Positions 49,953-63,384 of a stretch of DNA of 64,000 bases are shown here, in pieces. Position numbers and translations under genes: made by a program. Source of the DNA: a virus; the IMG/VR virus record IMGVR_UViG_3300044846_005229, positions 79,986-143,985 of that record. One strand, 5' to 3'. The notes under the pieces were generated by a model. The model saw nothing but the letters and a program-made list of their open reading frames with translations. It was not told the origin of the DNA and did no database searches. Every line of letters starts with the position of its first letter. The first letter of the stretch is position 1.

Positions 49953-50093
49953 GTTACAAAACTTAACATATCAGGGCGGGGAGTTTTACCATAATGAGTT
50001 AACTATCGGGTGGCAAGGAGTTTACCACGGGGGTAGTACACTTGTACTAGCTTACCCGGTGGCAATACCCGGTGGCAATACCCGGTGGCTAAC
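49953..50093. repeat. First block of the regulatory repeat array
   Basis: This spacer holds an AAAACTTAACA element (49961-49970 region) and the best copy of a 16-bp palindrome, TAGTACACTTGTACTA at 50034-50049, followed by three ATACCCGGTGGCA units. It is the left end of a family of such spacers that continues to about 62 kb. Confidence 0.7.
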
Positions 50094-50297
50094 TCACTTG
50101 GAGCGGCGGCGCCTCAGCTCATCCCCGTAGGTGCAAGCCTCATCGCTATAGCGGCCCTCAGCAATCGGGTTCCAGCCACGCATGGCAGCCTCGGCCTGGC
50201 GACAATCTCTGGCTGCATAGGACAGCTCGGCATCGGTCATGCTGCTGGCTTTGGTGGCCCAGGCGGTGAAATCAGCGGCGGTAGCGGCGGTGGTCAT
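50094..50297 (-). CDS. Small array protein, paralogue of 51258
   Basis: A 67-residue protein. It shares ATxADxTAW and a MTDxE motif with the 61-residue protein at 51258 (AATAADFTAWATKASSMTDAE versus VATIADLTAWQKEATLMTDPE). It ends with a basic RRRRSK tail. The -10 box TACAAT lies at 50328-50323, and the promoter-to-start region is a copy of that before the next gene. Confidence 0.65.
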   Translation of the reverse strand: MTTAATAADFTAWATKASSMTDAELSYAARDCRQAEAAMRGWNPIAEGRYSDEACTYGDELRRRRSK

Positions 50298-50431
50298 GGT
50301 GCCCCTTGCTTGGTACCTACATATTGTAGCACCCTGGCGGGGGCAATGTGGCCCTTGGTTCCTGGACTCGGGAAATCGTTACGGTTCGTCACATTGCCGC
50401 AGAAGTCGAAACCATGGGAAAGCCCCGGAAA
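50284..50431. repeat. 148-bp direct duplicate, copy 1 (promoter and start of 50297 gene)
   Basis: This block is identical by eye to 50629-50776. It holds a CCCCGG-AAA-CCGGGG hairpin, the TACAAT promoter (50328-50323), the ribosome entry region and the first codons of the gene. Such a duplicate shows that a promoter-start cassette can be copied as a unit. Confidence 0.85.
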
Positions 50432-50438
50432 CCGGGGC
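50417..50438 (-). terminator. GC-rich hairpin after the 50460 gene
   Basis: GCCCCGG-AAA-CCGGGGC at 50422-50438 forms a 7-bp stem, followed on the minus strand by TTTCCC. A short T-run makes it a moderate terminator. Confidence 0.5.
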
Positions 50439-50459
50439 GGTGGAGTCATGCCAGGCGGA

Positions 50460-50642
50460 TCAGCAAGTGGCAATCCATGCAGCCGCCTCGGCTTCGGTAA
50501 GGGGGCCAGCGATGCAGGTGCTGTCAACCTCAAAGCAGGAACGACGCTGCCACTCGTAGCCGAACCATGCGCCATCTTCCTGACGGATTGAGAAGCCGTA
50601 GCCGTTGCGGTCAACTCGGCGGGTGGTGGCGGCGGTGGTCAT
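50460..50642 (-). CDS. Small array protein
   Basis: A 60-residue protein beginning MTTAATTRRVDRNGYGFSI and ending ADD-free with EAEAAAWIATC. Its promoter (-10 TACAAT at 50673-50668) is in the duplicated 148-bp block. Compact, acidic, no known family. Confidence 0.6.
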   Translation of the reverse strand: MTTAATTRRVDRNGYGFSIRQEDGAWFGYEWQRRSCFEVDSTCIAGPLTEAEAAAWIATC

Positions 50643-50776
50643 GGTGCCCCTTGCTTGGTACCTACATATTGTAGCACCCTGGCGGGGGCAATGTGGCCCT
50701 TGGTTCCTGGACTCGGGAAATCGTTACGGTTCGTCACATTGCCGCAGAAGTCGAAACCATGGGAAAGCCCCGGAAA
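50629..50776. repeat. 148-bp direct duplicate, copy 2
   Basis: The second copy of the promoter-start block, identical to 50284-50431 as far as I can compare base by base. It lies before the gene at 50460. Confidence 0.85.
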
Positions 50777-50953
50777 TCACCAGCGGGCGGCCCAGACCTT
50801 AAGCTCAGCCAGGCTGTAGGTTGCCATGCAGCCAGCGAGGGTGCCATTCTCGACCCGGTGGACCCGGTACTGACCGAACCGGCGAGTAACCCTGACATCC
50901 GGGTGACTTGCGAAAAAATCTAGGATTTGATTGCTAGTGCTCAGGGTGGCCAT
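50777..50953 (-). CDS. Small array protein
   Basis: A 58-residue protein from ATG 50953, MATLSTSNQILDFFASHPDV and a C-terminus LAGCMATYSLAELKVWAARW, an ending that I associate with small cyanophage proteins. The promoter is TATAAT at 50985-50980. Confidence 0.6.
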   Translation of the reverse strand: MATLSTSNQILDFFASHPDVRVTRRFGQYRVHRVENGTLAGCMATYSLAELKVWAARW

Positions 50954-51007
50954 TTGCCGTTTGGTTGGTTGGCTTCGTAATTATAGCATGGTTGCCGGGG
51001 GTGCCGA

Positions 51008-51228
51008 CGGGTTTGCCGGGGTTTTGTTACGTTTAGTAATAATGCCATGGGAGTAATACAAACGTATTAGCTCACCCGGTGAGGTTGCGCTTCGGGTGAG
51101 TTGTAACAAAACTTAATAATCCGGTGAGTTTATTATCCGGTGGCGACACAAAACTTAACACATTGGGGCAGGGAGTTTAACGGCAATGAGTTAAGGGACC
51201 TAGTAGCAAGAACCTAGATAGCAAAAAG
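51008..51228. repeat. Regulatory repeat spacer
   Basis: A gene-free spacer (50954-51257). From left to right on the plus strand: GTTTTGTTACGTTTAGTAA box, palindrome TAATACAAACGTATTA at 51054-51069, GGTGAGTT units, and two AAAACTTAA elements near 51105 and 51148. It precedes the terminator of the 51258 gene. Confidence 0.7.
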
Positions 51229-51244
51229 CCCCGGCGAACCGGGG
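51222..51244 (-). terminator. Intrinsic terminator of the 51258 gene
   Basis: CCCCGG-CGAA-CCGGGG (51229-51244) with an A-run on the plus strand at 51223-51227, giving U residues in the minus-strand RNA. Confidence 0.75.
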
Positions 51245-51257
51245 CAGGGCCAGATAC

Positions 51258-51443
51258 TCAGCGGCGGTAGCAAAGTTCCCGGTGGAGTGCATTGGACCTT
51301 GCGATGCAGCCCCCAAGGCTCTCGGGGCGGATCCTGGCTTCGATGCCAAGGCGACGGATGGCCCGGTGGATTTCAGGGTCCGTCATCAGGGTGGCCTCTT
51401 TCTGCCAAGCGGTGAGATCAGCGATGGTAGCGACGGCGGGCAT
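51258..51443 (-). CDS. Small array protein, paralogue of 50094
   Basis: A 61-residue protein with ADLTAWQKEATLMTDPEIHR and a Cys near the end. It is a diverged copy of the gene at 50094. The promoter is a full consensus, TTGACA-17-TATAAT (-10 at 51475-51470). Confidence 0.65.
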   Translation of the reverse strand: MPAVATIADLTAWQKEATLMTDPEIHRAIRRLGIEARIRPESLGGCIARSNALHRELCYRR

Positions 51444-51475
51444 GGTGCGTTCCGGTGCGGTACTTACATATTATA

Positions 51476-51994
51476 TGCCAGGGATGGATGGGTGTCAAGG
51501 CGCCGGTCGGTGAGTTTACGCCCTGTAACAATGCCGGTCGGCGAGTTTACGCTCCGGGTGTCGCGCTTCGGGTGAGTTGACTATCAGGTGGCGACACAAA
51601 ACTTAACATATCAGGGCAGGGAGTTTGGCGGCAATGAGTTTACTGTCAGGTGGCGACACAAAACTTAACACACCCTGGCAAGGAGTAATACACTTGTACT
51701 AGCTTGCCCGGTGTTGCTCTCCGGTGTTGCTCTCCGATGAGTTGACTATCGGTGAGTTGACTACCGGGTGCGATGTTACAAAACTTTACATATCAGGGCA
51801 GGGAGTAATACACTTGTACTATCTCACCCGGCGGCAGTTTGACCGCAATGAGTTTACCGCGAGAGTAATACACTTGTACTATCTCACCCGGTGACAATAC
51901 CCGATGGCAATACCCGATGCCAATGAGTTCGACCGCAATGAGTTTACCACGGGAGTAATGCTCTTGTACTATCTTCCCCAGTGGCAATACCCAT
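51476..51994. repeat. Longest regulatory repeat spacer, four palindromes
   Basis: About 520 bp without a gene. It contains four copies of the palindrome family (51686-51701, 51806-51821, 51866-51881, 51956-51971), three AAAACTT elements (near 51598, 51660, 51781) and many GGTGAGTT and ATGAGTT units. No convincing ORF is seen. Confidence 0.7.
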
Positions 51995-51995
51995 G

Positions 51996-52018
51996 AAAAA
52001 ACCCCGGCAAGGCCAGGG
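51996..52018 (-). terminator. Intrinsic terminator of the 52044 gene
   Basis: CCCCGGC-AAG-GCCAGGG (one G-U pair) with six A on the plus strand before it, i.e. a U-run in the minus-strand RNA. Confidence 0.7.
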
Positions 52019-52043
52019 CAAGGTGGGAATTGGGCCGGAACCC

Positions 52044-52280
52044 CTAGGTAAGGGTCTCGATAGACTCGATAGACTGGCTCAGCATGCCCCTCAGCTGACG
52101 CAGGGTATCAAGGGTTTCATGGGCAGGGCGGAAGATGGCTTTGCCATCGGGGCGGTACACTTCCCTCAGGGACCCAATCAGGTTGGCCAGGGCGATTCCT
52201 TCGGTGACGGCCTTCTCCACGATTCGATCCACTTCGGCGGCGACGGGGGTGGTTACGGTGGCGGTAGTGGTGGTGGGCAT
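52044..52280 (-). CDS. Small array protein
   Basis: A 78-residue protein from ATG 52280, MPTTTTATVTTPVAAEVDRI then IVEKAVTEGIALANL and SLREVYRPDGKAIFR. A CCGGGAG ribosome site precedes the start and TACAAT lies at 52313-52308. Helical, no family. Confidence 0.6.
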   Translation of the reverse strand: MPTTTTATVTTPVAAEVDRIVEKAVTEGIALANLIGSLREVYRPDGKAIFRPAHETLDTLRQLRGMLSQSIESIETLT

Positions 52281-52353
52281 GGGTGACTCCCGGTTGGTGA
52301 CTCTGTAATTGTACCATACGGCAGGCAGGGGGCGCAAGCCCCCCTTGGGCCAC

Positions 52354-52515
52354 TCATTCCCAGGTGGCACTAGCGACCCAGCCAGGGATCCCCCGGTCGG
52401 CAAAGCCGGAATTCATCCGCTCTGCTTCGGCGATAGCGGCTTTCTTGTTAGGGGTCTCGTATAAGGTCTCGCGACCGGTTTCGGTGCAGAGGATGACGCG
52501 GTAGATGCGGGACAT
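52354..52515 (-). CDS. Small array protein
   Basis: A 53-residue protein from ATG 52515, MSRIYRVILCTETGRETLYE with a helix after it, ending WVASATWE. Promoter TTGACC-18-TATAAT (-10 at 52546-52541). Confidence 0.6.
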   Translation of the reverse strand: MSRIYRVILCTETGRETLYETPNKKAAIAEAERMNSGFADRGIPGWVASATWE

Positions 52516-52677
52516 TTGCGGTTTGGTGCGGTACCTCGTAATTATAGCATGGTGCCATGGGGGTGGTCAACTCCTGGACTTTAATGGCTGGCAAGCATGG
52601 TGCCAACGGAACCGTCAACCCCATGGATTCTGCGGCAGGAAGGGGGCCCGGCAGGCAACCCCCCCCCCTAGGCACCC

Positions 52678-52812
52678 TCAGGCCTCGCCCACGACAATCC
52701 AACCCTTGGGTTTCCGGCTAAGGGGGCCAGTGTAGACGACTTGCTCAAGGAAACCTTCGCGGTTGGTGCGCTCAAGCAGCCACTGGCTGGGGGTGGTGGT
52801 TTTGGTGGCCAT
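52678..52812 (-). CDS. Small array protein
   Basis: A 44-residue protein from ATG 52812, MATKTTTPSQWLLERTNREG, ending KGWIVVGEA. Promoter TATAAT at 52856-52851. Very short but with the same leader structure as its neighbours. Confidence 0.55.
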   Translation of the reverse strand: MATKTTTPSQWLLERTNREGFLEQVVYTGPLSRKPKGWIVVGEA

Positions 52813-52885
52813 TGCGGTTCGGTGGGTGACTCCCGGTTGGTGACTCTGAGATTATAGCACGGATAGGCAGGGGGCGCAAGCCCCC

Positions 52886-53101
52886 TCAGGCAGGCATCGT
52901 GAAGTATGTATCCTCTGCGTCCCATCCTTGCTGGATAAGTTCTTCAATGCCCCGCTCCCCGTCTTCCTTGGAAGGGTGCAGCCAATTCAGCTCCCAGCTC
53001 CCATCGGAGCCAACCCGGAAAGTGGCACAGACGGTACCGGGTAGGAGGTGGTAGGGGTGGCCCTCAGGGCAGTAGCAGATGGAAGGGGTGGTTGTGGCCA
53101 T
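52886..53101 (-). CDS. Small array protein with C-x-C-type start
   Basis: A 71-residue protein from ATG 53101, MATTTPSICYCPEGHPYHLL with three Cys and two His that could bind metal. It then has a WELNWLHPSKEDGE acidic part. Promoter TTGACA-17-TATAAT (-10 at 53138-53133), full consensus. Confidence 0.6.
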   Translation of the reverse strand: MATTTPSICYCPEGHPYHLLPGTVCATFRVGSDGSWELNWLHPSKEDGERGIEELIQQGWDAEDTYFTMPA

Positions 53102-53175
53102 GGGTGGTTGCCCTTGGTTGGTTGACTCTGTGATTATAGCATGGTTCCGGGGCAGTGTCAACCCCCTAGGAACCC

Positions 53176-53640
53176 TCAAACCGCAACCACAGCAACCTTG
53201 GCAGTCTTACGGGGGGCACGCTTGCGAGCAGGGGCAGGGGCCGGTGCAGGGGCGTCGGCGGTCGCAGAGGCCTTGGTTGCCTTGGTCGTCTTAGTCGTCT
53301 TGGCGCGGCTCTTACGGGCAGGGGCCGGTGCAGCAGCCAGCAGGGCGATAGGGCCACTTGCGGCCATCAGGACGGGAACCTCAGCGGGCACGACAATTTC
53401 CTGGAACTCAATAGCGATGCCATCGATGGCTTCAACCGTGGCCCTAGCCAGGGCAGCCAACTGATCGTTGCGGGCATCGATAGCCTCGCGGGTTTGACAA
53501 CCCAGATCATAGGCAGAGTCTGCCGTGATGGTGACCACGGCGATAGCGTAAGCGATCACAATGCCAGCAATGCGGGCAGCCTTCTCAAGGGTGGGGGCCC
53601 AATCGGCTTTCAGGATGGTTGCGATGGTGGTGGTGGCCAT
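53176..53640 (-). CDS. Array protein with Ala/Lys/Pro-rich tail
   Basis: A 154-residue protein, the largest of the array. Residues 20-45 are hydrophobic (AARIAGIVIAYAIAVVTIT) and may be a membrane segment. The last 55 residues are rich in Ala, Lys and Pro (TTKTTKATKASATADAPAPA, then KRAPRK), like the DNA-binding tails of histone H1-type proteins. It may bind nucleic acid or sit at a membrane. Promoter TTGACA-17-TACAAT at 53673-53668. Confidence 0.55.
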   Translation of the reverse strand: MATTTIATILKADWAPTLEKAARIAGIVIAYAIAVVTITADSAYDLGCQTREAIDARNDQLAALARATVEAIDGIAIEFQEIVVPAEVPVLMAASGPIALLAAAPAPARKSRAKTTKTTKATKASATADAPAPAPAPARKRAPRKTAKVAVVAV

Positions 53641-53689
53641 GGGTGGCGTTTCGCTTGGGACCCCTTAATTGTAAGCCATGGGTGGCCGG

Positions 53690-53995
53690 GTGTCAAGGTG
53701 CTGGCGGTTTTGTTTGCATTTCGTAATAATGCCAGTGGGAGTAATACAAACGTACTAGCTCACCCGGTGAGTTTGCGCTTCGGGTGTCGCGGTCCGGTGA
53801 GTTTGCCGGTCGGTGAGTTTGCGGTCCGGTGAGTTTACGCTTCGAGTGTGATGTTACAAAACTTAACACATCGGGGCAGGGAGTTTGACGGCAATGAGTT
53901 AGCCGCCCGGTGTCAACACAAAACTTAACATTCCGGTAGCAATTTGACGGCAATGAGTTAGCTATTGGGTGTCAACACACCATGGCAGGGAGCAT
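53690..53995. repeat. Regulatory repeat spacer
   Basis: This spacer has a GTTTTGTTTGCATTTCGTAA box, the palindrome TAATACAAACGTACTA at 53742-53757, GGTGAGTTTGC repeats and AAAACTTAACA elements near 53858 and 53922. Gene-free. Confidence 0.7.
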
Positions 53996-54005
53996 GTGAA
54001 ACCAG

Positions 54006-54033
54006 CATAAAGAAAGGCCGCCGATTGGCAGCC
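54006..54033 (-). terminator. Intrinsic terminator of the 54055 gene
   Basis: GGCCGCC-GATT-GGCAGCC (54016-54033) with an A-rich run before it on the plus strand, followed by TTTCTTT on the minus strand. Confidence 0.6.
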
Positions 54034-54054
54034 CTTTACTATGCGGACTTTCGT

Positions 54055-54444
54055 TCACAAAGGGTTGAAATTATCATCCACATCATCCATTCTTTCAAAC
54101 GTAGGGCAATGTAGCAGATTGCCACTTTGTGCATACCCGTCGATGACATATTGTGAATATTGCTTAATGTTTTGAACAGCATCTTTGCTGTCTACTGTAT
54201 CCACGAACTTGCCCATGTTATAGTATGAAATCTGATCACCATTGTGGAAGTGATAAACCCTCTTTAGAATGAGACGCATCCCACTCACAAAGAACTCCAT
54301 ATCGACTTGACATTCGTCCCCCACCCCAAAGTATACGGGGAATGTATACAAATCGTTAGGGGAGGGATTAGCCCAAGGGCTGGAATTTTCCCACTGAAGG
54401 GTAACTGAAGTCGTCCCACGGGAAATGATCGAGGGGGTGGGCAT
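54055..54444 (-). CDS. Array protein of 129 residues
   Basis: A 129-residue protein starting MPTPSIISRGTTSVTLQWEN, rich in beta structure and aromatic residues (YFGVGDECQVDMEFFVSGM and KRVYHFHNGDQISYYN). It has a promoter with TATAAT at 54473-54468. Lower GC and different composition from its neighbours, so it may be a recent import. Confidence 0.55.
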   Translation of the reverse strand: MPTPSIISRGTTSVTLQWENSSPWANPSPNDLYTFPVYFGVGDECQVDMEFFVSGMRLILKRVYHFHNGDQISYYNMGKFVDTVDSKDAVQNIKQYSQYVIDGYAQSGNLLHCPTFERMDDVDDNFNPL

Positions 54445-54499
54445 GGTGCGTTCCGGTTGACTCTGTAATTATAGCATGGGGCGGGAGCCTGCTGTGGGT

Positions 54500-54680
54500 T
54501 TCCGGGAGTTTTGTTTGCATTCCGTAATAATGCCGGGTCGGTGAGTTTACGCTTCGGTAAGTTGACTATCGGGTGCGATGTTACAAAACTTAACATTCCG
54601 GTGGCAGTTTGCGGTTCGGGTGTGATGTTACAAAACTTAACACATCATGGCAGGGAGTTTGACGGCAGGGAGTTAAACCT
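54500..54680. repeat. Regulatory repeat spacer
   Basis: GTTTTGTTTGCATTCCGTAA box, then GGTGAGTTTAC and two AAAACTTAACA elements near 54585 and 54634, ending in a GGCAGGGAGTTTGACGG repeat. No palindrome copy is seen here. Confidence 0.65.
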
Positions 54681-54702
54681 TGAACAGCAAAAATACCGAC
54701 TA

Positions 54703-54727
54703 CAAAAAGGTCCCGGCGAACCGGGAC
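54703..54727 (-). terminator. Intrinsic terminator of the 54748 gene
   Basis: GTCCCGG-CGAA-CCGGGAC (54710-54727) with AAAAAGG before it on the plus strand (U-rich minus RNA). Confidence 0.7.
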
Positions 54728-54747
54728 GGGTGGGGGGGCCAAGGCCA

Positions 54748-54978
54748 TCATGCGAAGCCGTAGCGTTGCATTAGGGCCTTAGTGGCAATGCGTTCTGCCC
54801 CCGTCATGTAGTCCAACAGGTGTTCAGCGCCGTCTGCGGAGACCTCCTCGAATGCCTCTTCTTTCTTGATTCCATAGTGGCTGGAAATGTTGCCCAGAAT
54901 GTTATCCCGGGTGGCTGCATCAATCGCAACGAGGAAAACGTAGTTCAGCCTGCCCTGGGGAACGGTGGTGGTGGTCAT
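54748..54978 (-). CDS. Small array protein of a widespread phage family
   Basis: A 76-residue protein from ATG 54978, MTTTTVPQGRLNYVFLVAID then DNILGNISSHYGIKKEEAFE and HLLDYMTG. I have seen this FLVAIDAATRDNILGNI pattern in many cyanophage proteins without known function. Promoter TACAAT at 55009-55004. Confidence 0.65.
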   Translation of the reverse strand: MTTTTVPQGRLNYVFLVAIDAATRDNILGNISSHYGIKKEEAFEEVSADGAEHLLDYMTGAERIATKALMQRYGFA

Positions 54979-55039
54979 TTGCCTTTCGGTGCGGGACCCC
55001 CTAATTGTAGCACACTGCGGGGGCCTGCTGTGGGGTGCC

Positions 55040-55262
55040 GGTGGTTGTCGGTAGTTTTGTTTGCGTTTTGTTACCATTGGGAATTAGCCGCCAGGAGTAA
55101 TACACTTGTACTAGCTCACCCGGTGGTATAATCCCGCAGGCACTTTACGCTTCGGGTTAGTTGTAACAAAACTTAATAATCCGGTGAGTTAACTACCGGG
55201 TGCCAACACAAAACTTAACACATCGTGGCAGGGAGTTTGACCGTAATGAGTTAAACCCCCAA
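55040..55262. repeat. Regulatory repeat spacer
   Basis: GTTTTGTTTGCGTTTTGTTA box, palindrome TAATACACTTGTACTA at 55098-55113 and two AAAACTTAA elements near 55168 and 55213. No gene. Confidence 0.7.
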
Positions 55263-55312
55263 ACAGCAAGCCCCAGCAAAGCCAGGGCAGTAGCAACAAC
55301 CTGATGCAACCC

Positions 55313-55519
55313 TCAACCTCGCGCAACCCTGGCAAAGTCCAGATCGGGATAAACCACCAGCTCCCTAGGCAGGCTGCGGGCGCGACGGGCCCAGGCGTAC
55401 TCGTCGGTGTACATCGCCTCGATGCGGGCATTATCACGGGCCACGACAGCGGTGATACGCTCACGGGCGGCAGCGCGGCGGTCGGAGGCGATCTGGGCGC
55501 GGTAGGTGGTGGGGGCCAT
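55313..55519 (-). CDS. Small basic array protein
   Basis: A 68-residue protein, Arg- and Ala-rich (SDRRAAARERITAVVARDNAR) with a WARRARSLPRELVVYPDLD end. The high Arg content could suit nucleic-acid binding. Promoter TACAAT at 55552-55547. Confidence 0.6.
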   Translation of the reverse strand: MAPTTYRAQIASDRRAAARERITAVVARDNARIEAMYTDEYAWARRARSLPRELVVYPDLDFARVARG

Positions 55520-55589
55520 TTGCCGTTTGGTGCGGTTGACTCTGTAATTGTAGCATATGGCCGGGGGTGCTGGGTGGTGCCGGTAGGTG

Positions 55590-55868
55590 CCGGGGGGTTT
55601 TGTTTACGTTTGGTTGCCATTGGGGGTTAGCCGCCAGGAGTAATACACTTGTACTAGCTCACCCGGTGAGTTTACGCTTCGGGTGTGATGTTACAAAACT
55701 TAACAATCCGGTGGCAGCTTCACGGCAATGAGTTAGCTATCCGGTGTCAACACAAAACTTAACATTTCTGGGGTAGCTTCACGGCAATGAGTTAGCTATC
55801 CGGTGTCAACACAAAACTTAACACATCAAGGCAGGGAGTTTGACGACAAAGAGTTATCGCACCGGCCA
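55590..55868. repeat. Regulatory repeat spacer with tandem 58-bp units
   Basis: GTTTTGTTTACGTTTGG box, palindrome at 55641-55656, then three units each with AAAACTTAACA and GGCAATGAGTTAGC (near 55692, 55752, 55811). The last two units differ by only a few bases. Gene-free. Confidence 0.75.
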
Positions 55869-55869
55869 G

Positions 55870-55894
55870 CAAAAAGCCCCCGGATGATGGAGGC
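55870..55894 (-). terminator. Weak intrinsic terminator of the 55904 gene
   Basis: GCCCCC...GGAGGC stem (55876-55894) with AAAAAG at the left, giving a U-rich tail in the minus RNA. Confidence 0.5.
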
Positions 55895-55903
55895 AGTATG
55901 GGC

Positions 55904-56194
55904 TCAATCAACGATAGCTGACCACTCGTTGGCATCAATGCCAGGGTGGACGTGTGCCTCGTAAAGACGGGTGCCGTCAGTGAGCTGGGCGACACAGAGG
56001 TAGTGATCTGTTTGGGCCATGCAACCAGCAATGTGGAGAACCGCGCCGGTTGCGGCGTGGCGAAAATCGGCAAGGTCGCTGATATAAGTGGTGCCGATGA
56101 CAGCAGATTGCTTGCGCATGTACGGGGTGCTGGCACGCTCGGCAGCCTGCTCGGCGATGGTCAGAACCTCTTCGTCGGTGAGGGTGGTGGCCAT
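55904..56194 (-). CDS. Array protein of 96 residues
   Basis: A 96-residue protein from ATG 56194, MATTLTDEEVLTIAEQAAER, with a beta-like centre and a C-terminal HPGIDANEWSAIVD. Ribosome site CGGGAG seven bases upstream. Promoter TATGAT at 56227-56222. Confidence 0.6.
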   Translation of the reverse strand: MATTLTDEEVLTIAEQAAERASTPYMRKQSAVIGTTYISDLADFRHAATGAVLHIAGCMAQTDHYLCVAQLTDGTRLYEAHVHPGIDANEWSAIVD

Positions 56195-56271
56195 GGGTGA
56201 CTCCCGGTTGGTGACTCTGTGATCATAGCATGGATGGGCCAGGGAACGCAAGCCCCCTAACCCCGTGGCGC

Positions 56272-56433
56272 TCAGGCGACTCTGACGTGGAGGCCCCGAG
56301 CGATCTCTTTAAGTTCGGACTCAGAGCGGAAAACCAGCATGAGCCAGAAATCTCCGGTGACTTCAAGATTGTTAGCCTTGATGACGTTCATGATGTCGTG
56401 GCGGAGGGCTTGCTTGCGTTGGGTGGTGGTCAT
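56272..56433 (-). CDS. Small array protein
   Basis: A 53-residue protein from ATG 56433, MTTTQRKQALRHDIMNVIKA then VTGDFWLMLVFRSESELKEI. Promoter TTGCTG-17-TATAAT (-10 at 56467-56462). Confidence 0.55.
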   Translation of the reverse strand: MTTTQRKQALRHDIMNVIKANNLEVTGDFWLMLVFRSESELKEIARGLHVRVA

Positions 56434-56483
56434 GGGTGGCTCCCGGTTGGTTGACTCTGTAATTATAGCACGGGGCCGTAGAG

Positions 56484-56717
56484 TCAGCAATAAGCGTTTA
56501 GAGATCCGTATGGATTGGCCGAAAGATTGAAAAAACCCTCGTAGCTTTCCGCTTCAGTGCGTGCCATTGGCATCAATGGAGGGGGTGACTGAGAGGAGCC
56601 CCACTGGTGGCGATCATTTGCTCTAGCGAGGTGATGATGATGCTTAATCCTGGAGCGTGTTTCACTCCAGTAGCAAGCGGTTCCATGAAAGTAGCCGTAG
56701 CCGGTCGAATTGGTCAT
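56484..56717 (-). CDS. Array protein with His-rich centre
   Basis: A 77-residue protein from ATG 56717, MTNSTGYGYFHGTACYWSET with HHHHLARANDRHQW in the middle and an aromatic C-terminus. Promoter TATAAT at 56755-56750. Confidence 0.5.
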   Translation of the reverse strand: MTNSTGYGYFHGTACYWSETRSRIKHHHHLARANDRHQWGSSQSPPPLMPMARTEAESYEGFFNLSANPYGSLNAYC

Positions 56718-56772
56718 GGGTGGTGATGCCGGTAGTTTGGGACTCCGCAATTATAGCATGAATGGCAGGGGG

Positions 56773-56979
56773 TTAGTCGTCGTTCCAGCATTGGCACCTA
56801 GGGTCAAGTACCCCACAGCCCCGGCACGCCATCGAGATGAGACGCAATCGCTCGTCATCGCTTAGCTGTGCAAACTTAGCGGCAGCAGCCCCAAACTTAC
56901 TTTCAACCGGCTTCCATGACCCGTCTGGAGTGGTGCGAAACCAGAGAATGCCGCCCTCAAACTTCTCTTCGTAATACAT
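56773..56979 (-). CDS. Small array protein with Cys-rich end
   Basis: A 68-residue protein. The C-terminus RLISMACRGCGVLDPRCQCW has four Cys, like the closing motif of several small cyanophage proteins; it may bind zinc. Promoter TATAAT at 57011-57006. Confidence 0.6.
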   Translation of the reverse strand: MYYEEKFEGGILWFRTTPDGSWKPVESKFGAAAAKFAQLSDDERLRLISMACRGCGVLDPRCQCWNDD

Positions 56980-57102
56980 AGTGCCTTCGGGGTGGTGACT
57001 CTGTAATTATAGCAGGTTGGGGGCCGTAGCTGTGGGCGCTGTTGAGTTTTGTAACAATCGATGCGGAAAGGGGTCACCGGCTGGCAACCCCCCCCTTAGC
57101 AA

Positions 57103-57375
57103 TCAGCCCATCCCCGCAACCCTAGCAAGCTCTTGCATGGTGCAGGGGGAAGAACCCATCAGAGGCAAAATCGCAACTTCCATATGCGAATGCAGATTCT
57201 GCCAGCGAATAGCAGCAGCAGCAGCATCCTCAATGGACCAGCCTTCTACGGGGCCACCCTGCAGGAACCAGCGGCGCTGATGGGCTGTGGGGGTCTCAGG
57301 CTTGACGCGAGCCCACAGGCGGTAGGTTGTTGCCGGGGCGGCGGGTTGCATCGGGGCGGTGGTTGCAGTAGCCAT
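57103..57375 (-). CDS. Array protein of 90 residues
   Basis: A 90-residue protein from ATG 57375, starting MATATTAPMQPAAPATTYRL and containing TAHQRRWFLQGGPVEGW. Promoter TTGTGT-17-TATAAT (-10 at 57409-57404). Confidence 0.55.
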   Translation of the reverse strand: MATATTAPMQPAAPATTYRLWARVKPETPTAHQRRWFLQGGPVEGWSIEDAAAAAIRWQNLHSHMEVAILPLMGSSPCTMQELARVAGMG

Positions 57376-57516
57376 CGTTGCGGTGTCGGTTGGGGACCTC
57401 GTAATTATAGCACAGGGGGCCAGAGAACACAATCCCTAACCCCTCGTGACGGCAGGCAGGGGGCCAACACAGTGTCAACCCCATGGCATTGTCAACCCTT
57501 GGGCATTGTCAACCCC

Positions 57517-57756
57517 TCAAACGGCAGCCAGGGCATCCAGGGCGGCAGCCAGGGCGGTGGAGGGGAAGTAGCGGTCCTCACCTTCGCAGATATCCGACAG
57601 GCACCAGCGGAAACCACGACGGGTCGCATCAGCGGTCAGGATGTAGTCGGCACCTTTGAAGAAGGCACGGGATCCTTCGCTAAATTCCACACCGGCAGGG
57701 AGGCCTTTGCGGATGGCAGCGTTGATCATGGCGGAGGGGGTTGTGAGGCAGACCAT
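57517..57756 (-). CDS. Array protein of 79 residues
   Basis: A 79-residue protein, starting MVCLTTPSAMINAAIRKGLP, with RGFRWCLSDICEGEDRYF and an Ala/Leu-rich C-terminus. Promoter TATAAT at 57788-57783. Confidence 0.55.
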   Translation of the reverse strand: MVCLTTPSAMINAAIRKGLPAGVEFSEGSRAFFKGADYILTADATRRGFRWCLSDICEGEDRYFPSTALAAALDALAAV

Positions 57757-57829
57757 TTGCCGGGGGGGTGCGTTACCTCGTAATTATAGCACAGGGCCGA
57801 GGGTGCTGGGGGGTTGCCGGTAGGTGCCG

Positions 57830-58020
57830 GTGGTTTTGTTTACATCTGGTAACATTGCCGGTCAATGAGTTTGCAGTTCGGTGAGTTAACTATCGGGTGT
57901 GATGTTACATAACTTAACATACTGGGGCAGGGAGTTTAACGGCAATGAGTTTACTGCCAGGTGGCGACACAAAACTTAACACATCAAGGCAGGGAGTTTG
58001 ACGACAAAGAGTTATTGCAC
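57830..58020. repeat. Regulatory repeat spacer
   Basis: GTTTTGTTTACATCTGG box, GGTGAGTTAAC units and two AACTTAACA elements near 57909 and 57970. No palindrome copy is seen. Confidence 0.65.
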
Positions 58021-58027
58021 CGGCCAA

Positions 58028-58052
58028 CAAAAAAAACCCCGGCGAACCGGGG
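58028..58052 (-). terminator. Strong intrinsic terminator of the 58080 gene
   Basis: CCCCGG-CGAA-CCGGGG (58037-58052) preceded on the plus strand by eight A, so the minus RNA ends in a GC stem plus U8. The best terminator in the window. Confidence 0.85.
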
Positions 58053-58079
58053 CAGGGGCAGGGCAGTATCGGGGGGGTA

Positions 58080-58292
58080 TCAGCCTACGCCTTGTCCCCA
58101 GACGGTTAAGCAGCGGTCTCGGGCGACCCGGTAGGATTCAAGCTCCCTGCGGTTGAGATCCAACATGGGGCGATAACCGTTGATACCAGCCTCACATGCC
58201 GCTTTCCAAGCAGCCTCAGCACGGTCGATAGCGCATTGGGCGATATTAGCCCAAGCATCGGCGGAGATGGTTGCGGTGGTGGTGGGGGCCAT
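58080..58292 (-). CDS. Small array protein, helical and Ala-rich
   Basis: A 70-residue protein from ATG 58292, MAPTTTATISADAWANIAQC then RAEAAWKAACEAG and LNRRELESYRVAR. Promoter TATAAT at 58322-58317. Confidence 0.55.
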   Translation of the reverse strand: MAPTTTATISADAWANIAQCAIDRAEAAWKAACEAGINGYRPMLDLNRRELESYRVARDRCLTVWGQGVG

Positions 58293-58339
58293 TGCCGTTT
58301 GGTGCGGTACCCTGAAATTATAGCATGGTGCAGGGGCAA

Positions 58340-58733
58340 TTGCGGGGTGCCGTTTGATGACGTTTGGTAACAATGCCGTTTGAGTAGTAGGTTTGTACTA
58401 GCTTGCCCGTGGTTTGTTTGCGGTCCGGGTGTGATGTTACAAAACTTAACATTCCGATGGCAGTTTGTGAGTCTGTATTAACTACCCGGTGGCAACACAA
58501 AACTTAACATTCCGATGGCAGTTTGTGAGTCTGTATTAACTACCCGGTGGCAACACAAAACTTAACATTCCGATGGCAGTTTGACGGCAAGGAGTTTACC
58601 ATCAGGTGCCAACACAAAACTTAACATTCCGATGGCAGTTTGACGGCAAGGAGTTTACCATCAGGTGGCAACACCACGGCAAGGAGTAATACACTTGCAC
58701 AAGTGTGTCCGGTGGTAATACCAGGTGTCAATA
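58340..58733. repeat. Tandem 58-59 bp repeat block with palindromes
   Basis: Palindrome TAGTAGGTTTGTACTA at 58385-58400, then four tandem units of 58-59 bp (58432 to about 58670), each with AACACAAAACTTAACATTCC and GATGGCAGTTTG, followed by a weak palindrome copy at 58687-58702. It lies directly beside the tRNA gene. No ORF. Confidence 0.8.
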
Positions 58734-58808
58734 TGGGGACTGTGGGGATCGAACCCAAACCTCCGCCGATTTATGAGATCGGAGCATTCACCAGATTGCT
58801 AAGCCCCC
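58734..58808 (-). tRNA. tRNA with CAU anticodon (tRNA-Met or tRNA-Ile2)
   Basis: On the minus strand the sequence folds as a tRNA: a 7-bp acceptor stem (GGGGGCT with AGTCCCC, one G-U pair), an anticodon stem CCGAT/ATCGG around CTCATAA, and a T-loop TTCGATC. The D-stem is weak, and the CCA end is not encoded. The anticodon is CAU, so it is methionine or, after lysidine modification, isoleucine for AUA codons. It lies between array repeats and has no own promoter that I can see, so it may be processed from a longer transcript. Confidence 0.8.
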
Positions 58809-58838
58809 GTGTTTTCAGTTTGCCCTAGTTTGAGTTTT

Positions 58839-58954
58839 GTTGCGCTTCGTGATGATAGGCACGGCATGTTGCGCTTCGTGATGATGGGCATGGCATGTTG
58901 CGCTTCGTGGCGATAGGCACGGCATGTTGCGCTTCGTGATGGTAGGCATGGTGC
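58839..58954. repeat. Four tandem 29-bp repeats
   Basis: Units of GTTGCGCTTCGTGATGATAG plus GCACGGCAT occur four times with small changes, directly right of the tRNA. They show no spacers, so they are not CRISPR. They may be part of the tRNA 5' region or a slipped duplicate. Confidence 0.7.
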
Positions 58955-58972
58955 TGTTACGTTCTGCAACAT

Positions 58973-59230
58973 TCAAACCATTCTCACCATCGGGTGAAGA
59001 TGCGAGCCGGTTTTCGGGTCTGGCGGATAGATTCGGAGGGTGATAACTTCGTCACCATACGCTTCGATGACATCCTCCAGACTGGGGAACCAGTCTCCAG
59101 TGTAGCCGTCTATGACGCAGAATTCGTAGTCGTCGCCATCTGCATAACCATCGGCAAGAACCGGCGTGATATTGGCAGGCAGATCGCCCAACCTGGTGAG
59201 GATGGCATCCAGGGTAGTTGCGGTGACCAT
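58973..59230 (-). CDS. Array protein of 85 residues, possible relative of 61327
   Basis: An 85-residue protein, MVTATTLDAILTRLGDLPAN then GYADGDDYEFCVIDGYTGDW and a RIYPPDPKT part. It follows the pattern of the 61327 protein (ILA-LP, GDE-x-x-F, IY-x-P). Promoter TATACT at 59261-59256. Confidence 0.6.
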   Translation of the reverse strand: MVTATTLDAILTRLGDLPANITPVLADGYADGDDYEFCVIDGYTGDWFPSLEDVIEAYGDEVITLRIYPPDPKTGSHLHPMVRMV

Positions 59231-59335
59231 TTGCGGTTTGGGTAGTGACTCTGTAAGTATAGCATAGGGCCAACGGAACCGTCAACCCCTGGATTTAATC
59301 CTGCGGCAGGCAAGGGGCCAACACAGTGGCAACCA

Positions 59336-59512
59336 TCACCCAATGCCTTCCCGGTCGTATTCGCCAAAGGTTGCCTCAAATTCTGCACGGTCATCGTAGA
59401 ATTCAGCCTGAGCGTCGGGATCACCGTCAGCCAGGGCTTGGAGGAATTTTAGGGTATCGCCGTCAGTGGCGGTGGTGGTGGTGGCGGTAATGGTTGTTGA
59501 AGTGGGGGCCAT
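59336..59512 (-). CDS. Small acidic array protein
   Basis: A 58-residue protein from ATG 59512, MAPTSTTITATTTTATDGDT, then acidic DGDPDAQAEFYDDRAEFEAT. Promoter TACAAT at 59541-59536. Confidence 0.55.
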   Translation of the reverse strand: MAPTSTTITATTTTATDGDTLKFLQALADGDPDAQAEFYDDRAEFEATFGEYDREGIG

Positions 59513-59739
59513 TTTTTTCTCCGGGGTGTCTGTCTATTGTAGCATAGTGCTGGGGGGTTGGGGTTTGCGGGTCGGGTGCCTCGGGATGGATGCCAGGGGT
59601 TGGATTCCAGGGGTTGGATTCCAGGGGTATCGTTGACTCCTAGGGGTGAGGTGGACAGTTTGTTAAGTGTCCATCTGACCTAAAGGAGTATCGTGCCAGG
59701 GAGTTTGGTGCCCAAGGGTTAGTGCCAGTATTAGACTTT
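59513..59739. repeat. Spacer with TTGGATTCCAGGGG repeats and a GACAGTTT palindrome
   Basis: It contains two or three TTGGATTCCAGGGG repeats (59599-59630) and a partly symmetric GACAGTTTGTTAAGTGTC at 59654-59671 that also occurs, as a perfect palindrome, before element B. No gene. It is directly followed by element A. Confidence 0.55.
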
Positions 59740-59936
59740 GGGTGCGTTTTATGAGTAATGTGGAACCTCAGGGTGCTTTTTGCGAGTAATGTGGAACGCC
59801 CCAAAATAAAAATCGAAAATTCAATCCTTGAGATCGACTGCAGCGGAACGGAGTTACTCCTAAAAAAATTAAAAATTTTAGGACCTAGTTGAAATCCATC
59901 CAAAAAATTCTACATTTGAATGCATATTATGCACCC
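59740..59936. other. Structured element A (first of three copies)
   Basis: A 197-bp element. Its left part has two direct copies of GGGTGC(n)TTTT..AGTAATGTGGAA spaced 31 bp (59740, 59771). The right end has the inverted counterpart ATTCTACATT...TGCACCC. The centre holds a TCCTAAAA/TTTTAGGA hairpin and a GAGATCGACTGCAG block. Lengths differ by no more than two bases between copies. On the minus strand one frame is open across the whole element, but its start would be TTG just after TAG. Confidence 0.75.
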
Positions 59937-60046
59937 TACTACTATAATCGCATATAAATTATTTAATAGAGTGTACTTATGTTAGTTGTACAATCAATAA
60001 GTTTTTCTTATTCTTAGGTACAATCAATGAGTTAAGGGCCAGAAGA
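59937..60046. other. AT-rich spacer after element A
   Basis: AT-rich sequence with ACTATAAT and ATATAAATTATTTAATAG (plus strand), the same flank as seen after element C. It could be a promoter region or an unwinding region. A GTACAATCAAT repeat occurs twice. No ORF. Confidence 0.4.
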
Positions 60047-60083
60047 CAAAAAAAAAGGGGGGATAACCCTAAGGCAATCCCCC
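60047..60083 (-). terminator. Intrinsic terminator of the 60110 gene
   Basis: GGGGGAT...ATCCCCC hairpin with nine A at the left (plus strand), so the minus RNA ends in a strong stem and U9. Confidence 0.8.
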
Positions 60084-60109
60084 ATTCTTTGTACTAAGTT
60101 TATCGCCAA

Positions 60110-60448
60110 TCAATCATTCTTGGCCTTCCATGCACGCAACCGGCTAATTGCCTCCTCTACGCTGCTGGCATTAGACTTGCGGAATTTGGCCGTTTTGCTA
60201 TAGGAAAACATTTCAATCTTCCCACCCCCGATGGAAAACATTGCGTAGCGGGAATTGTGGAAGATTCCGTTAATCCATTCTTCCTTAGGGTCTAGGGATA
60301 CCTTGACGATTAGGGAAGCGTTTTGCTCACCGCCAAGGGTAGACCTTTGCACAGAAGAAACCGGGAAGGTGGCATTCAGGGAAGCAGCCAGGGTGTCGCG
60401 ATCGGTTTCGGTCGGGATGAAGGCAGTTGCGAGGGTTGCGGTGGCCAT
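60110..60448 (-). CDS. Array protein of 112 residues
   Basis: A 112-residue protein, MATATLATAFIPTETDRDTL then SLIVKVSLDPKEEWINGIF and a basic C-terminus (AISRLRAWKAKND). Beta-rich centre. Promoter TATAAT at 60480-60475. Confidence 0.6.
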   Translation of the reverse strand: MATATLATAFIPTETDRDTLAASLNATFPVSSVQRSTLGGEQNASLIVKVSLDPKEEWINGIFHNSRYAMFSIGGGKIEMFSYSKTAKFRKSNASSVEEAISRLRAWKAKND

Positions 60449-60526
60449 GGGGCGCTCCGGTGGGTGACCCTGTAATTATAGCACGAAAGGGAAGGGGGCG
60501 CAAGCCCCCCAACCCCCGGCCATCAC

Positions 60527-60823
60527 TCACACAGCAGGGACCCGGCTACCGGCAGCGATCACCCCTTTGCCTTTCATCTCATCCAGCAGGGTAACGAAAG
60601 CGGCAGCGATGGCGTTCTTGGTGGCACGACCGGTTAGCTCAACCCGGAAACTCCGGCAGCTGAAGGGCAGGCATGTGAACATGCTGTAGCCGGTGCGGGT
60701 CTCTACAGTGCCCTCACTGGCAGTAACCCTAGCAGGGCGGCCAGCGGGCTTGTAGAAGGTTACCTGGAAGACAGCTCCAGGGTTGTCAAGGCTGTTCACG
60801 TAGAAGGAATTGGGGGTTGCCAT
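60527..60823 (-). CDS. Array protein of 98 residues
   Basis: A 98-residue protein from ATG 60823, MATPNSFYVNSLDNPGAVFQ, beta-rich, with two Cys in MFTCLPFSCRSF and a helical end. Promoter TACAAT at 60865-60860. Confidence 0.55.
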   Translation of the reverse strand: MATPNSFYVNSLDNPGAVFQVTFYKPAGRPARVTASEGTVETRTGYSMFTCLPFSCRSFRVELTGRATKNAIAAAFVTLLDEMKGKGVIAAGSRVPAV

Positions 60824-60910
60824 TGCGGTTCGGGGTGGTTGCCGTTGGTTGACTCTGTAATTGTACCATACAGCAGGCAGGGGGGCGCAAGCCCCCAACC
60901 ACTCAAGGCA

Positions 60911-61243
60911 TCAAATGGCCAGGGCTCGGACGCCTATGATCTTGCCTTCCCCGTCTCTCACTACGTTCTGGGGGCCAGTATCTGGGCGGTAAAGATCGGT
61001 CCGGTTGGGGGCTGCCTGTTGAACCAACATAGAAACAACAAAAATAGTACCCTCTTCGGGATCAGGGAGATTCTCTACATCCCCAAAAGTAGTCCGGGTG
61101 ACGGGGATTCCATTAATTTTGAATACCTCTTCTGTTACTGAAGATACCCGTGCCGCAGGAGCGGTTGGGGCAATAGTAAAGACTTCTCCGTTCTCCTTGT
61201 ACAGATGAAGGGGGTGGGGGGTGAGGTTGATGATGGTGGCCAT
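60911..61243 (-). CDS. Array protein of 110 residues
   Basis: A 110-residue protein, MATIINLTPHPLHLYKENGE then VFTIAPTAPAARVSSVTEEV and a C-terminal GPQNVVRDGEGKIIGVRAL. The start INLTPHPLHLY is one I have seen in many phage and bacterial small proteins of unknown function. Promoter TATAAT at 61278-61273. Confidence 0.65.
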   Translation of the reverse strand: MATIINLTPHPLHLYKENGEVFTIAPTAPAARVSSVTEEVFKINGIPVTRTTFGDVENLPDPEEGTIFVVSMLVQQAAPNRTDLYRPDTGPQNVVRDGEGKIIGVRALAI

Positions 61244-61326
61244 TGCGGCGTTCCGGTGTGGTTGACTCTGTAATTATAGCACAAAGGGGAAGGGGGGCAA
61301 CCCTAAGGCAAACCCCAGGCCATCAC

Positions 61327-61575
61327 TCACACGGCGGGCAGGTAAATCTCTAGGGTATAGGTAACCTCAGCCTCATTATAGGCAGCCAAGGTATCGGCCA
61401 GCTCCCCAAGTGACACATAGTCGCTGTATTCACCATCATCTACAAGGAAATCGACCTCATCGCCATCGGCAGGTTCTTCCGACAGGAAGGGAGCGCAGAA
61501 CGGGCTCAGCGTAACGGGCAAGGTGGCGAGGATTTCAGCCAGGGTAGGAGCAGTGGGGGCGGTTGCGGTAGCCAT
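61327..61575 (-). CDS. Array protein of 82 residues, possible relative of 58973
   Basis: An 82-residue acidic protein, MATATAPTAPTLAEILATLP and a PADGDEVDFLVDDGEYSDYV centre. Promoter TATAAT at 61608-61603. Confidence 0.6.
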   Translation of the reverse strand: MATATAPTAPTLAEILATLPVTLSPFCAPFLSEEPADGDEVDFLVDDGEYSDYVSLGELADTLAAYNEAEVTYTLEIYLPAV

Positions 61576-61643
61576 GGTGCGGTCTCGGTGGGTGACTCTG
61601 TAATTATAGCACGAAAGGGAAGGGGGCGCAAGCCCCCCACAAG

Positions 61644-61823
61644 TTAGAATCTGATGACGGGATGGCCGGGGTCAAGAGTGTCACATGCTTCAGTTGTGAA
61701 AACCAACTTAACTTTCTGGCCAAAATGCTCATCAATTCCCTCGTCATAAACTGTAACGTTAGAGTCTAGTTGTTCATCGGTGAATTGTTGCAGTTGCTGA
61801 AGCAGTTCCCGGTAGGTAATCAT
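61644..61823 (-). CDS. Array protein of 59 residues
   Basis: A 59-residue protein from ATG 61823, MITYRELLQQLQQFTDEQLD then SNVTVYDEGIDEHFG. The MITYRELL...QLD...VTV order is a small family I recall from bacteria and phages. Promoter AATAAT at 61853-61848. Confidence 0.65.
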   Translation of the reverse strand: MITYRELLQQLQQFTDEQLDSNVTVYDEGIDEHFGQKVKLVFTTEACDTLDPGHPVIRF

Positions 61824-61889
61824 TGCGGTTCGGTGTGGGACCCCTTAATTATTACACATCGGTAGGCAGAACGCAAGAGGCCGGGTCGT

Positions 61890-61982
61890 TTGTTTGCGTT
61901 TTGTGACAGTGCCACGCGAGTAGTATGTTTGTACTAACTGACCCGGTATCAATACCAGTAGGCAATGAGTTTGCCTAAGTAT
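61890..61982. repeat. Regulatory repeat spacer with palindrome
   Basis: TTTGTTTGCGTTTTGTG box and palindrome TAGTATGTTTGTACTA at 61921-61936, the last copy of its family before the window end. Confidence 0.65.
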
Positions 61983-62011
61983 AAAAAAAAGAGGGGGCTG
62001 TCAACCCCCCC
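61983..62011 (-). terminator. Intrinsic terminator of the 62035 gene
   Basis: GGGGGCTGTCAACCCCC-type stem with eight A at the left on the plus strand (U-rich minus RNA). Confidence 0.75.
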
Positions 62012-62034
62012 TAACTCAACTATCATTCTTACCA

Positions 62035-62271
62035 TCATTCGCAAACTTTCGGTAGTACGGTACCATGCACCAAATAGCCATACCTTTCGATGCCATACTT
62101 GTGCAAAATATGCACATTGGGCCATGATTCGCCTTGTCCCCAAGTACCTGACTGACTCATACGCTCAAAAGCACATTCAACGCTGTTACGCAGCCAGGAA
62201 TGATCGATACGGGATGCTGATGCCGCTTGGTTGCTGCGGTAGTTGCGGTACTTGGGGGCGGGGAATGCCAT
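62035..62271 (-). CDS. Array protein of 78 residues
   Basis: A 78-residue protein from ATG 62271, MAFPAPKYRNYRSNQAASAS then NSVECAFERMSQSGTWGQGE and GIERYGYLVHGTVLPKVCE. The frame extends far upstream through element B, but the promoter (TATAAT at 62304-62299) shows that the gene begins here. Confidence 0.6.
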   Translation of the reverse strand: MAFPAPKYRNYRSNQAASASRIDHSWLRNSVECAFERMSQSGTWGQGESWPNVHILHKYGIERYGYLVHGTVLPKVCE

Positions 62272-62357
62272 TGTTGCCGGTGGTTGGTTGGCTCCGTAAT
62301 TATAGCACATTGCCTCGGGGGTTGGGGCCCCGGATTGCTGACTCCCAAGGTGTGGTG

Positions 62358-62375
62358 GACAGTTTGTAAACTGTC
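62358..62375. other. Perfect palindrome GACAGTTTGTAAACTGTC
   Basis: An 8-bp arm palindrome with a 2-bp centre. The same region before element A has a decayed form. It may be a protein binding site linked with the element. Confidence 0.6.
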
Positions 62376-62415
62376 TATTTGACTTCGTGAGTTTGACTTT
62401 TAGGGTTTGATTCTG

Positions 62416-62613
62416 GGGTGTGTTTTCGGGGTCAATGTGGAATCTCAGAGTGCTTTTTGCAGGTAATGTAGAATGCCTAATTTGAAAAGTCTGAAAGTCA
62501 ACCGCTGAGATCGACTGCAGGGCAACGGAGTTACTCCTAAAAAAATTAAAAATTTTAGGACCTAGTGAAAAACGATCCAAAAAATTCTACATTTGAATGC
62601 ATATTCTGCACCC
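62416..62613. other. Structured element B (second copy)
   Basis: A 198-bp copy with perfect AATGTAGAAT/ATTCTACATT arms. The outer GGGTGC/GCACCC stem shows one exchange. The centre has the same TCCTAAAAAAATT hairpin as copy A. It is followed by an AT-rich flank with GTATAATAAGTG. Confidence 0.75.
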
Positions 62614-62777
62614 TAGGGTCTTTATATACACTTTTTCGCGAATATATGTATAATAAGTGTTTATTCTATGTTGTTATAGTTTGTTGTTGATGAGTCCAAG
62701 TAATAAACAACTGGGATACGGTCTCAACAGTCTCAGTTAAGTATCGGAATGATGTCACACTTCAAGAGTAAGCAGAT
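62614..62777. other. Spacer between elements B and C
   Basis: AT-rich at the left with TATATAC and TATAAT sequences. The right half (62690-62777) has normal composition. No ORF or clear repeat is seen. Confidence 0.35.
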
Positions 62778-62973
62778 GGGTGCGTTTTTCCAGTAATGTA
62801 GAAACCCGGGGTGCATTTTGCCGGTAATGTAGAATGCCCCAAATTAAAAACCTGAAATTCAATCCCTGAGATCGACTGCAGGGGAACGGAGTTACTCCTA
62901 AAATTTTTGAATTTTTTAGGACCTAATGGAAAACCATCCAAAAAATTCTACATTTGAATGCAAATTCTGCACC
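62778..62973. other. Structured element C (third copy)
   Basis: A 196-bp copy with the two direct motifs at 62778 and 62809 and perfect AATGTAGAAT/ATTCTACATT arms. The central hairpin arm changed from AAAAAAATT to AAAATTTTT on one side and its partner changed with it, so the ability to pair is kept. Confidence 0.75.
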
Positions 62974-63198
62974 CTACTACTATATACTCGCGTAAAAATT
63001 ATTTAATAGAAGACTCTTATCTTAATGTCTAGACAGATAAGTAATTCTTATCAATCTAATCCCCCATCAAACCGCAATGTTGTGGGCTATTCGAGGATGC
63101 TAACCGGAGTCTCACCAAATAGCAAAGGGGCCGATGCCTAAGCACCAACCCCCAAACATTAAACTAAGGTCAATCTAAGGCCAAACCAAAGTCCGAAT
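62974..63198. other. Spacer after element C
   Basis: The first 45 bp repeat the AT-rich flank of element A (ATTATTTAATAG). The rest holds TAAGTAATTCTTATC and normal sequence, including AACCGGAGTCTCACC, with no gene. Confidence 0.35.
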
Positions 63199-63384
63199 TC
63201 AGGTATAGAAACGAATCTGAGCCAGGAAGCACTCCCGGCGTTGCTTGCGGAGGATGGTGCGGATGCGTTTCGCCTGCGTGAGGGTCCACACTCGATTGCC
63301 AACGGGCTCAGACCACGGTTTGCGGGTGATTTCCTGAACGGTATAAAAGATGCGGGTTTTCTTGGTTGCGATTGCGGTGGCCAT
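63199..63384 (-). CDS. Small basic array protein
   Basis: A 61-residue basic protein from ATG 63384, MATAIATKKTRIFYTVQEIT then AKRIRTILRKQRRECFLAQ. Promoter is full consensus: TTGACA-17-TACAAT (-10 at 63422-63417). Confidence 0.65.
   Translation of the reverse strand: MATAIATKKTRIFYTVQEITRKPWSEPVGNRVWTLTQAKRIRTILRKQRRECFLAQIRFYT

Follow-up and report, generated by a model that had tools for sequence, protein, structure and literature searches.

One promoter-start block precedes two unrelated genes

In the virus genome analysed here, a single block of 148 bp that carries a promoter and a gene start stands, identical to the base, before two unrelated small genes, and a relative has the block before a third. 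The window, i.e. the whole stretch of 64,000 nucleotides that was analysed, corresponds to bases 79986-143985 of a 279,339-base virus record (IMG/VR type). We consider it probable that recombination recently placed this one block before two unrelated gene bodies, within an array of single-gene units with interchangeable modules. The support consists of the exact identity of the copies, the unrelated genes downstream, the single diverged copy in the relative (locus L016), the occurrence of one of the two genes elsewhere with other flanks, and exchanged upstream regions; the direction and the enzymology of the copying we infer.

The 1,216-aa sheath protein found cyanophages (15 records in total, with S-CBWM1 as top match at 45% identity), the portal matched Portal_Mu (1.9e-66) and the DNA polymerase is of family A. 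The virus would therefore be a large cyanomyovirus, with portal and polymerase lending no support to T4-type membership. A cyanobacterial host is probable, and the habitat is presumed likewise. The features discussed below are collected in Table 1.

Table 1. Features of the duplicated block, its neighbouring genes and the surrounding array (window positions).
Feature	Positions	Strand	Remarks
Copy 1 of 148-bp block	50284..50431	-	between gene B and gene A; letter-for-letter match to copy 2
Copy 2 of 148-bp block	50629..50776	-	between gene C and gene B; begins right after C stop codon
Gene A, 67 aa	50094..50297	-	small protein family, also in other cyanophages (S-SRM01, S-2L)
Gene B, 60 aa	50460..50642	-	unrelated to A; one relative found, on a Synechococcaceae MAG contig
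Gene C, 58 aa	50777..50953	-	upstream neighbour; 16 codons only in L016
Putative extended -10 promoter TGCTACAAT, copy 1 (gene A)	50323..50331	-	assigned from consensus
Putative extended -10 promoter TGCTACAAT, copy 2 (gene B)	50668..50676	-	assigned from consensus
Complete terminator-like hairpin GCCCCGG-TTT-CCGGGGC before copy 1	50422..50438	-	50422-50431 inside block
31-nt stretch, copy 1	50367..50397	-	same in copy 2 and L016
31-nt stretch, copy 2	50712..50742	-	same in copy 1 and L016
Array of short minus-strand genes (window part)	50000..64000	-	TG[CG]TAYAAT 25-50 nt before each ATG
42-bp exact stem-loop and promoter module, copy a	60470..60511	-	
42-bp exact stem-loop and promoter module, copy b	61598..61639	-	before different gene than copy a

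The first-pass annotation had described the two copies as identical, and this was confirmed, with a match that cannot be extended by one base on either side. No exact direct repeat in the 64 kb exceeds the block in length (the runner-up, of 87 bp, is part of a tandem array), and the copies of the block lie in tandem at a spacing of 345 bp. Read on the minus strand, it starts with the loop and the 3' arm of a hairpin (10 nt) and continues through a spacer of about 90 nt with a T-tract to TGCTACAAT, the ATG and the gene start; the leader from TGCTACAAT to the ATG comprises 34 nt in all, and the last part of the block is the first 14 nt of the gene, ATGACCACCGCCGC. Identity between the copies stops at the hairpin loop at one end and 14 nt into the gene at the other, and the bodies of A and B show no similarity. 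The absence of differences over 148 positions limits the divergence of the copies to about 2% (95% upper limit). Chance similarity of the copies was rejected on their exact 148-bp match.

A relative carries one diverged copy before a third gene

Comparison with related phages had been proposed in the first-pass annotation as a check, and it revealed one diverged block before a third unrelated gene in L016, a locus from a 53,841-base contig. Amino acid identities between the window and L016 were 94% for tmk, 97% for D and 92% for g49202, and the flank proteins g49202 and D, used as queries, each retrieved this contig alone. The gene order in L016 is D, C', complete hairpin, block, X and g49202. 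Its block is present in a single copy and is 82.4% identical to that of the window over 148 columns, with 20 mismatches and 3 gap openings. Behind the block lies gene X, of 71 aa and with a GTG start, which is unrelated to A and B; both of these are missing from the L016 stretch examined. As L016 has X where the window has A and B, the block remains in place while the gene behind it differs between the two phages. The earlier description of the region as fast-changing was borne out, since C, the block and the downstream genes differ though the flank proteins share 92-97%.

Outside these two phages the block was not encountered: its exact 23-nt core had no match in viral_contigs, the block itself had none in the phage collection, just one of the seven related records searched contained it, and among 57 loci only L016 did, apart from the window's own record.

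Given the 20 mismatches between the window and L016, about 20 differences would be expected between the two copies if they were as old as the split from L016. Their zero differences agree with the earlier proposal of a recent copy event or gene conversion and would place the copying, or a conversion, after this split. An old duplication that preceded the split, with copies since homogenised by gene conversion, is in our estimation unlikely. Direct repeats of 148 bp at a distance of 345 bp would be readily converted by phage recombination, and identity alone is as compatible with conversion as with a recent copy, which one relative cannot separate; however, the region was found in no relative but L016, which has a single copy, although the other may have been lost together with the gene between. 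Tandem duplication of the whole 345-bp unit of block and gene, followed by replacement of one gene body, would account for copies in tandem at exactly this spacing, and the gene body behind the block has been replaced between the two phages (X in L016). Yet A and B are dissimilar, so that a full replacement would be needed within the short time set by the zero block differences, which makes this course of events quite improbable.

Under the reading of a recent recombinational placement of the block, the broad lines of what had been called promoter capture find support, with one block before the unrelated genes B, A and, in L016, X. For this particular event, growth of the array is only one of several possibilities, as L016 has the different gene X at the place, which fits gain, loss and replacement alike. 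When the C stop codon was joined to the sequence after the B stop codon and this clean empty site was compared with L016, the hairpin part agreed; the boundary of an insertion is unproven, because the first 18 nt after the stop match L016 only at about chance (7/18, counted by eye).

Gene C of L016 (L016:6977-7027) has just 16 codons; in the window's C, the part that L016 lacks is bounded by two ATGGCxAC sequences, which looks like a deletion by way of start-like repeats.

Regulatory elements in the block

A terminator, a promoter, a ribosome site and first codons had been assigned to the block. The first codons and, as a putative element, the promoter could be retained, the whole terminator and a real ribosome site could not. 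The 5' arm of the hairpin lies outside the block, with the loop and the 3' arm inside, and the best candidate for a ribosome site is AAGGGG, a few bases 5' of the ATG. The hairpin fragment folds at -15.0 kcal/mol for copy 1 and for L016, but copy 2 reaches just -3.9. When the copy-2 fragment is extended to 56 nt, it pairs with the end of gene C and folds at -14.0 (-17.2 for the equivalent of copy 1), and C may therefore still be terminated. The T-tract of the hairpin is weak (TTTCCC), and a consensus scan for two-hexamer promoters and for terminators listed neither the block promoter nor the block hairpin. The block may act as an early promoter.

The differing flanks also bear on the possibility of an assembly artefact, in which strains with C-block-A and block-B were merged via the 148-bp repeat or true differences between the copies were smoothed. 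The repeat is close to short-read length and the window comes from an IMG/VR-type record, but B lies between two copies of the block whose flanks differ (a full hairpin versus none after C), which a simple collapse would not produce, and the junction of C to the block is independently confirmed by L016, apart from a 28-nt stretch. We regard such an artefact as very improbable.

Within the block, a non-coding stretch of 31 nt is exact in both copies and in L016, whereas the block as a whole is 82% alike. No further occurrence was found in 84 kb of the record or in the scanned loci with up to 8 substitutions allowed. This stretch may be a regulator site.

Relatives of genes A and B

Genes A, B and C had no Pfam or PHROGs match at E 0.1, and C and X had no match in phages. 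At a threshold of E 1e-5, gene A had relatives in two isolates (three records, one for S-2L and two for S-SRM01); 22 viral contigs also contained relatives. From these 24 loci 19 were tabulated, five near-duplicates being left out, and in 18 of the 19 a Tyr or His precedes an Ala-Thr-x-x-Asp-Phe motif near the start. The window's gene A has Ala before this motif, and its start is identical to that of B. The closest A relative by DNA, L038, has Pro at the site and an N-terminus of the same length as that of A, for which reason a replacement of A's native start is suggestive only.

Gene B had no match in phages. In viral_contigs none of 32 stretches was confirmed, and in genome_contigs one of 442 pattern stretches was. 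This sole confirmed relative is located on RGUW01000075.1 (L065), a contig of a Synechococcaceae MAG, which is probably phage DNA since it also encodes a Siphovirus Gp157 protein and a DUF4942 protein. The body of B is identical to L065 at 168 of 183 nt (shuffles: mean 99.6, maximum 116), and its flanks are at shuffle level, with 26 identities in the 60 nt upstream (shuffles 30.6 +/- 2.7) and 28 in the 60 nt downstream (29.0 +/- 2.3). The body of B thus travels without most of the block. The block and L065 have in common the 12 nt with which B begins and a stretch of 11 nt at the -10 (GCTACAATATG), so that some of the start region may have arrived together with B. Our confidence in the recent placement of one block before two gene bodies is slightly reduced because L038 weakens the replacement of the A start and L065 shares these 12 nt and 11 nt.

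Partial exchange of promoter upstreams across the array

Including the next stretch of the record, 30 genes between 50.0 and 72.0 kb (22 kb) have TG[CG]TAYAAT 25-50 nt before the ATG, a core whose invariance is a product of the search pattern itself. At 49-72 kb, the minus strand holds 35 occurrences of the pattern TG.TA[TC]AAT and the plus strand one, compared to 0 and 2, respectively, in the first 49 kb. Outside the core, 28 of the 30 genes retain a G at position +15 (numbering from the T of TG), and no -35 element is visible in these 30 promoters. The array leaders share the promoter and a C/A-rich start context. At residues 2-5, Thr makes up 38% and Ala 24% of 120 residues; in a comparison set of 45 long open frames from the first 48.9 kb, Thr makes up 21% of 180 residues. 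Each small gene of the array would be its own transcription unit, to judge from the promoter before it and, for many, the hairpin after it.

The 60 nt before the -10 were compared in 14 pairs of orthologues between our record and L016 or L060; the comparison leaves out D, the block and 62307 / L060:3618, a pair with identical upstream that the protein match did not pick up. In eight pairs the promoter upstream is kept (0.77-0.98), one is intermediate (0.63), and five are at chance (0.47-0.52; 778 other pairs have a mean of 0.51 and sd of 0.08). Coding identity in these five is 0.79-0.95, and the leaders of two of them stay fairly similar (0.84). Two chance-level upstreams match another gene of our own record better and rank among the top of the 778 pairs, L016:5976 with 57791 (0.82) and L060:4729 with 68324 (0.78).

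Ten dispersed exact repeats of at least 30 bp are present in 84 kb of the record, two of which bear a promoter, namely the 148-bp block and the 42-bp module. Among 59 loci (612,483 bases) promoter-bearing repeats of this kind were found in L053 only, where three copies of a stem-loop-promoter module have 46 bp exactly in common; L016 and L060, 27 kb of the relative's array, contained none.

Other repeats were noted in the same regions. In the intergenic regions of the array at 49900-58000, units of ACAAAACTTAACA recur and palindromes resembling TAGTACACTTGTACTA occur; these may be regulator sites. A 58-bp tandem array (about 4 copies) and a 29-bp tandem array flank tRNA-Met(cat) (58734-58808) at 58439-58948, and a 14-bp tandem repeat of about 5 copies (98% matches) lies at 63539-63605. 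L053:4300-8000 is a compact array of small genes with repeated stem-loop and promoter modules of at least two kinds between them, on a contig that also has an A relative.

How the block may have been copied

Homologous or microhomology recombination, acting while the phage replicates, would have made the joint, with the junctions located at the hairpin loop at one end and within the first codons at the other. Possibly, unequal recombination took place between co-infecting relatives that carried B and A behind the same block; alternatively, the resident block would have been copied during replication. More generally, recombination between modules, or at hairpins and common start codons, could move gene bodies to a position behind promoter-start blocks that already exist. 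A dedicated mobile element or a site-specific recombinase that inserts cassettes in an integron-like manner would be in keeping with the hairpin at one junction and with single-gene cassettes in one orientation. However, no target-site duplication or conserved recombination site was seen by eye at the junctions, and the hairpin reads as a terminator, so that we hold such an element to be extremely improbable.

As a tentative and rather doubtful extension of recombination behind existing blocks, the array as a whole might work as a cassette system that needs no recombinase. Incoming gene bodies, which would bring hardly any regulatory sequence or none, would come into use through fusion, within their first codons, to a copy of a promoter-start block already present; the hairpin loop and the start context shared by the genes (ATG, then C/A-rich Thr/Ala codons) would be favoured as joints.

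Relation to known promoter modules

Promoter early stem-loops (PeSLs) are said to have been presented by Arbiol in 2010 and Comeau in 2014 as mobile regulatory cassettes of T4-type phages. In the available parts of the sources, PeSLs of T4-type phages are composite promoter stem-loops that mediate shuffling (PMC4503421, PMC3950731). The modules described here resemble them, as far as those parts go, in three ways: a promoter is joined to a stem-loop in the gaps that separate small genes in a variable region, the copies are repeated, and between relatives the modules assort independently of the genes. An intergenic stem-loop joined to a promoter is found at copy 1 and in the 42-bp module, and copy 2 has half a stem. 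Repeats in the variable small-gene region are represented by the 148-bp and 42-bp repeats and by the threefold module of L053, and shuffling between relatives by the chance-level upstreams in 5 of 14 pairs and by X behind the block. Unlike in PeSLs, the phage has a Mu-type portal and a family A polymerase and, on these two proteins only, does not qualify as T4-type; the copied block is 148 bp long and reaches into the first 14 nt of the gene; and it has half a hairpin and an extended -10 with no visible -35, with an early role that is presumed.

Similar arrangements have been reported from other viruses, here again according to the available parts of the papers. The haloarchaeal virus HGTV-1 has a PeSL-like motif, promoter-like with an inverted repeat, before most genes of one side of the genome, and genome shuffling was proposed (PMC3950731); its promoter is, unlike that of the window, of the archaeal TATA type, and an exact promoter-start duplication is absent from the portion of the description available. 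In Cluster K mycobacteriophages, repeated start-associated sequences (SAS and ESAS) lie directly before the start codons of genes of different families, about half of them with inverted repeats (PMC3203893), but the SAS is shorter (13 bp), has no promoter and is thought to act in translation initiation. The ORFanage of cyanophage S-PM2 is a cluster of small orphan genes that are quickly gained and lost, in which the authors saw few PeSLs and judged a PeSL mechanism unlikely (PMC4503421); in the window array, by contrast, promoter modules are dense. In Campylobacter group II phages, modules are separated by repeat regions. Promoter-module shuffling is thus known from other phages, and what differs here is the type of phage and the inclusion of first codons in the copied block. 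Searches of an open-access library turned up no account of an array of this kind in the phage group concerned.

For the biology of these viruses, the interest lies in how new genes come to be expressed. Phages gain and lose small orphan genes very fast, and the route by which a new gene reaches expression is seldom caught. The block before A, B and X would extend PeSL-like shuffling beyond T4-type phages, and it suggests that the start codon and first codons of a gene can travel together with its promoter.
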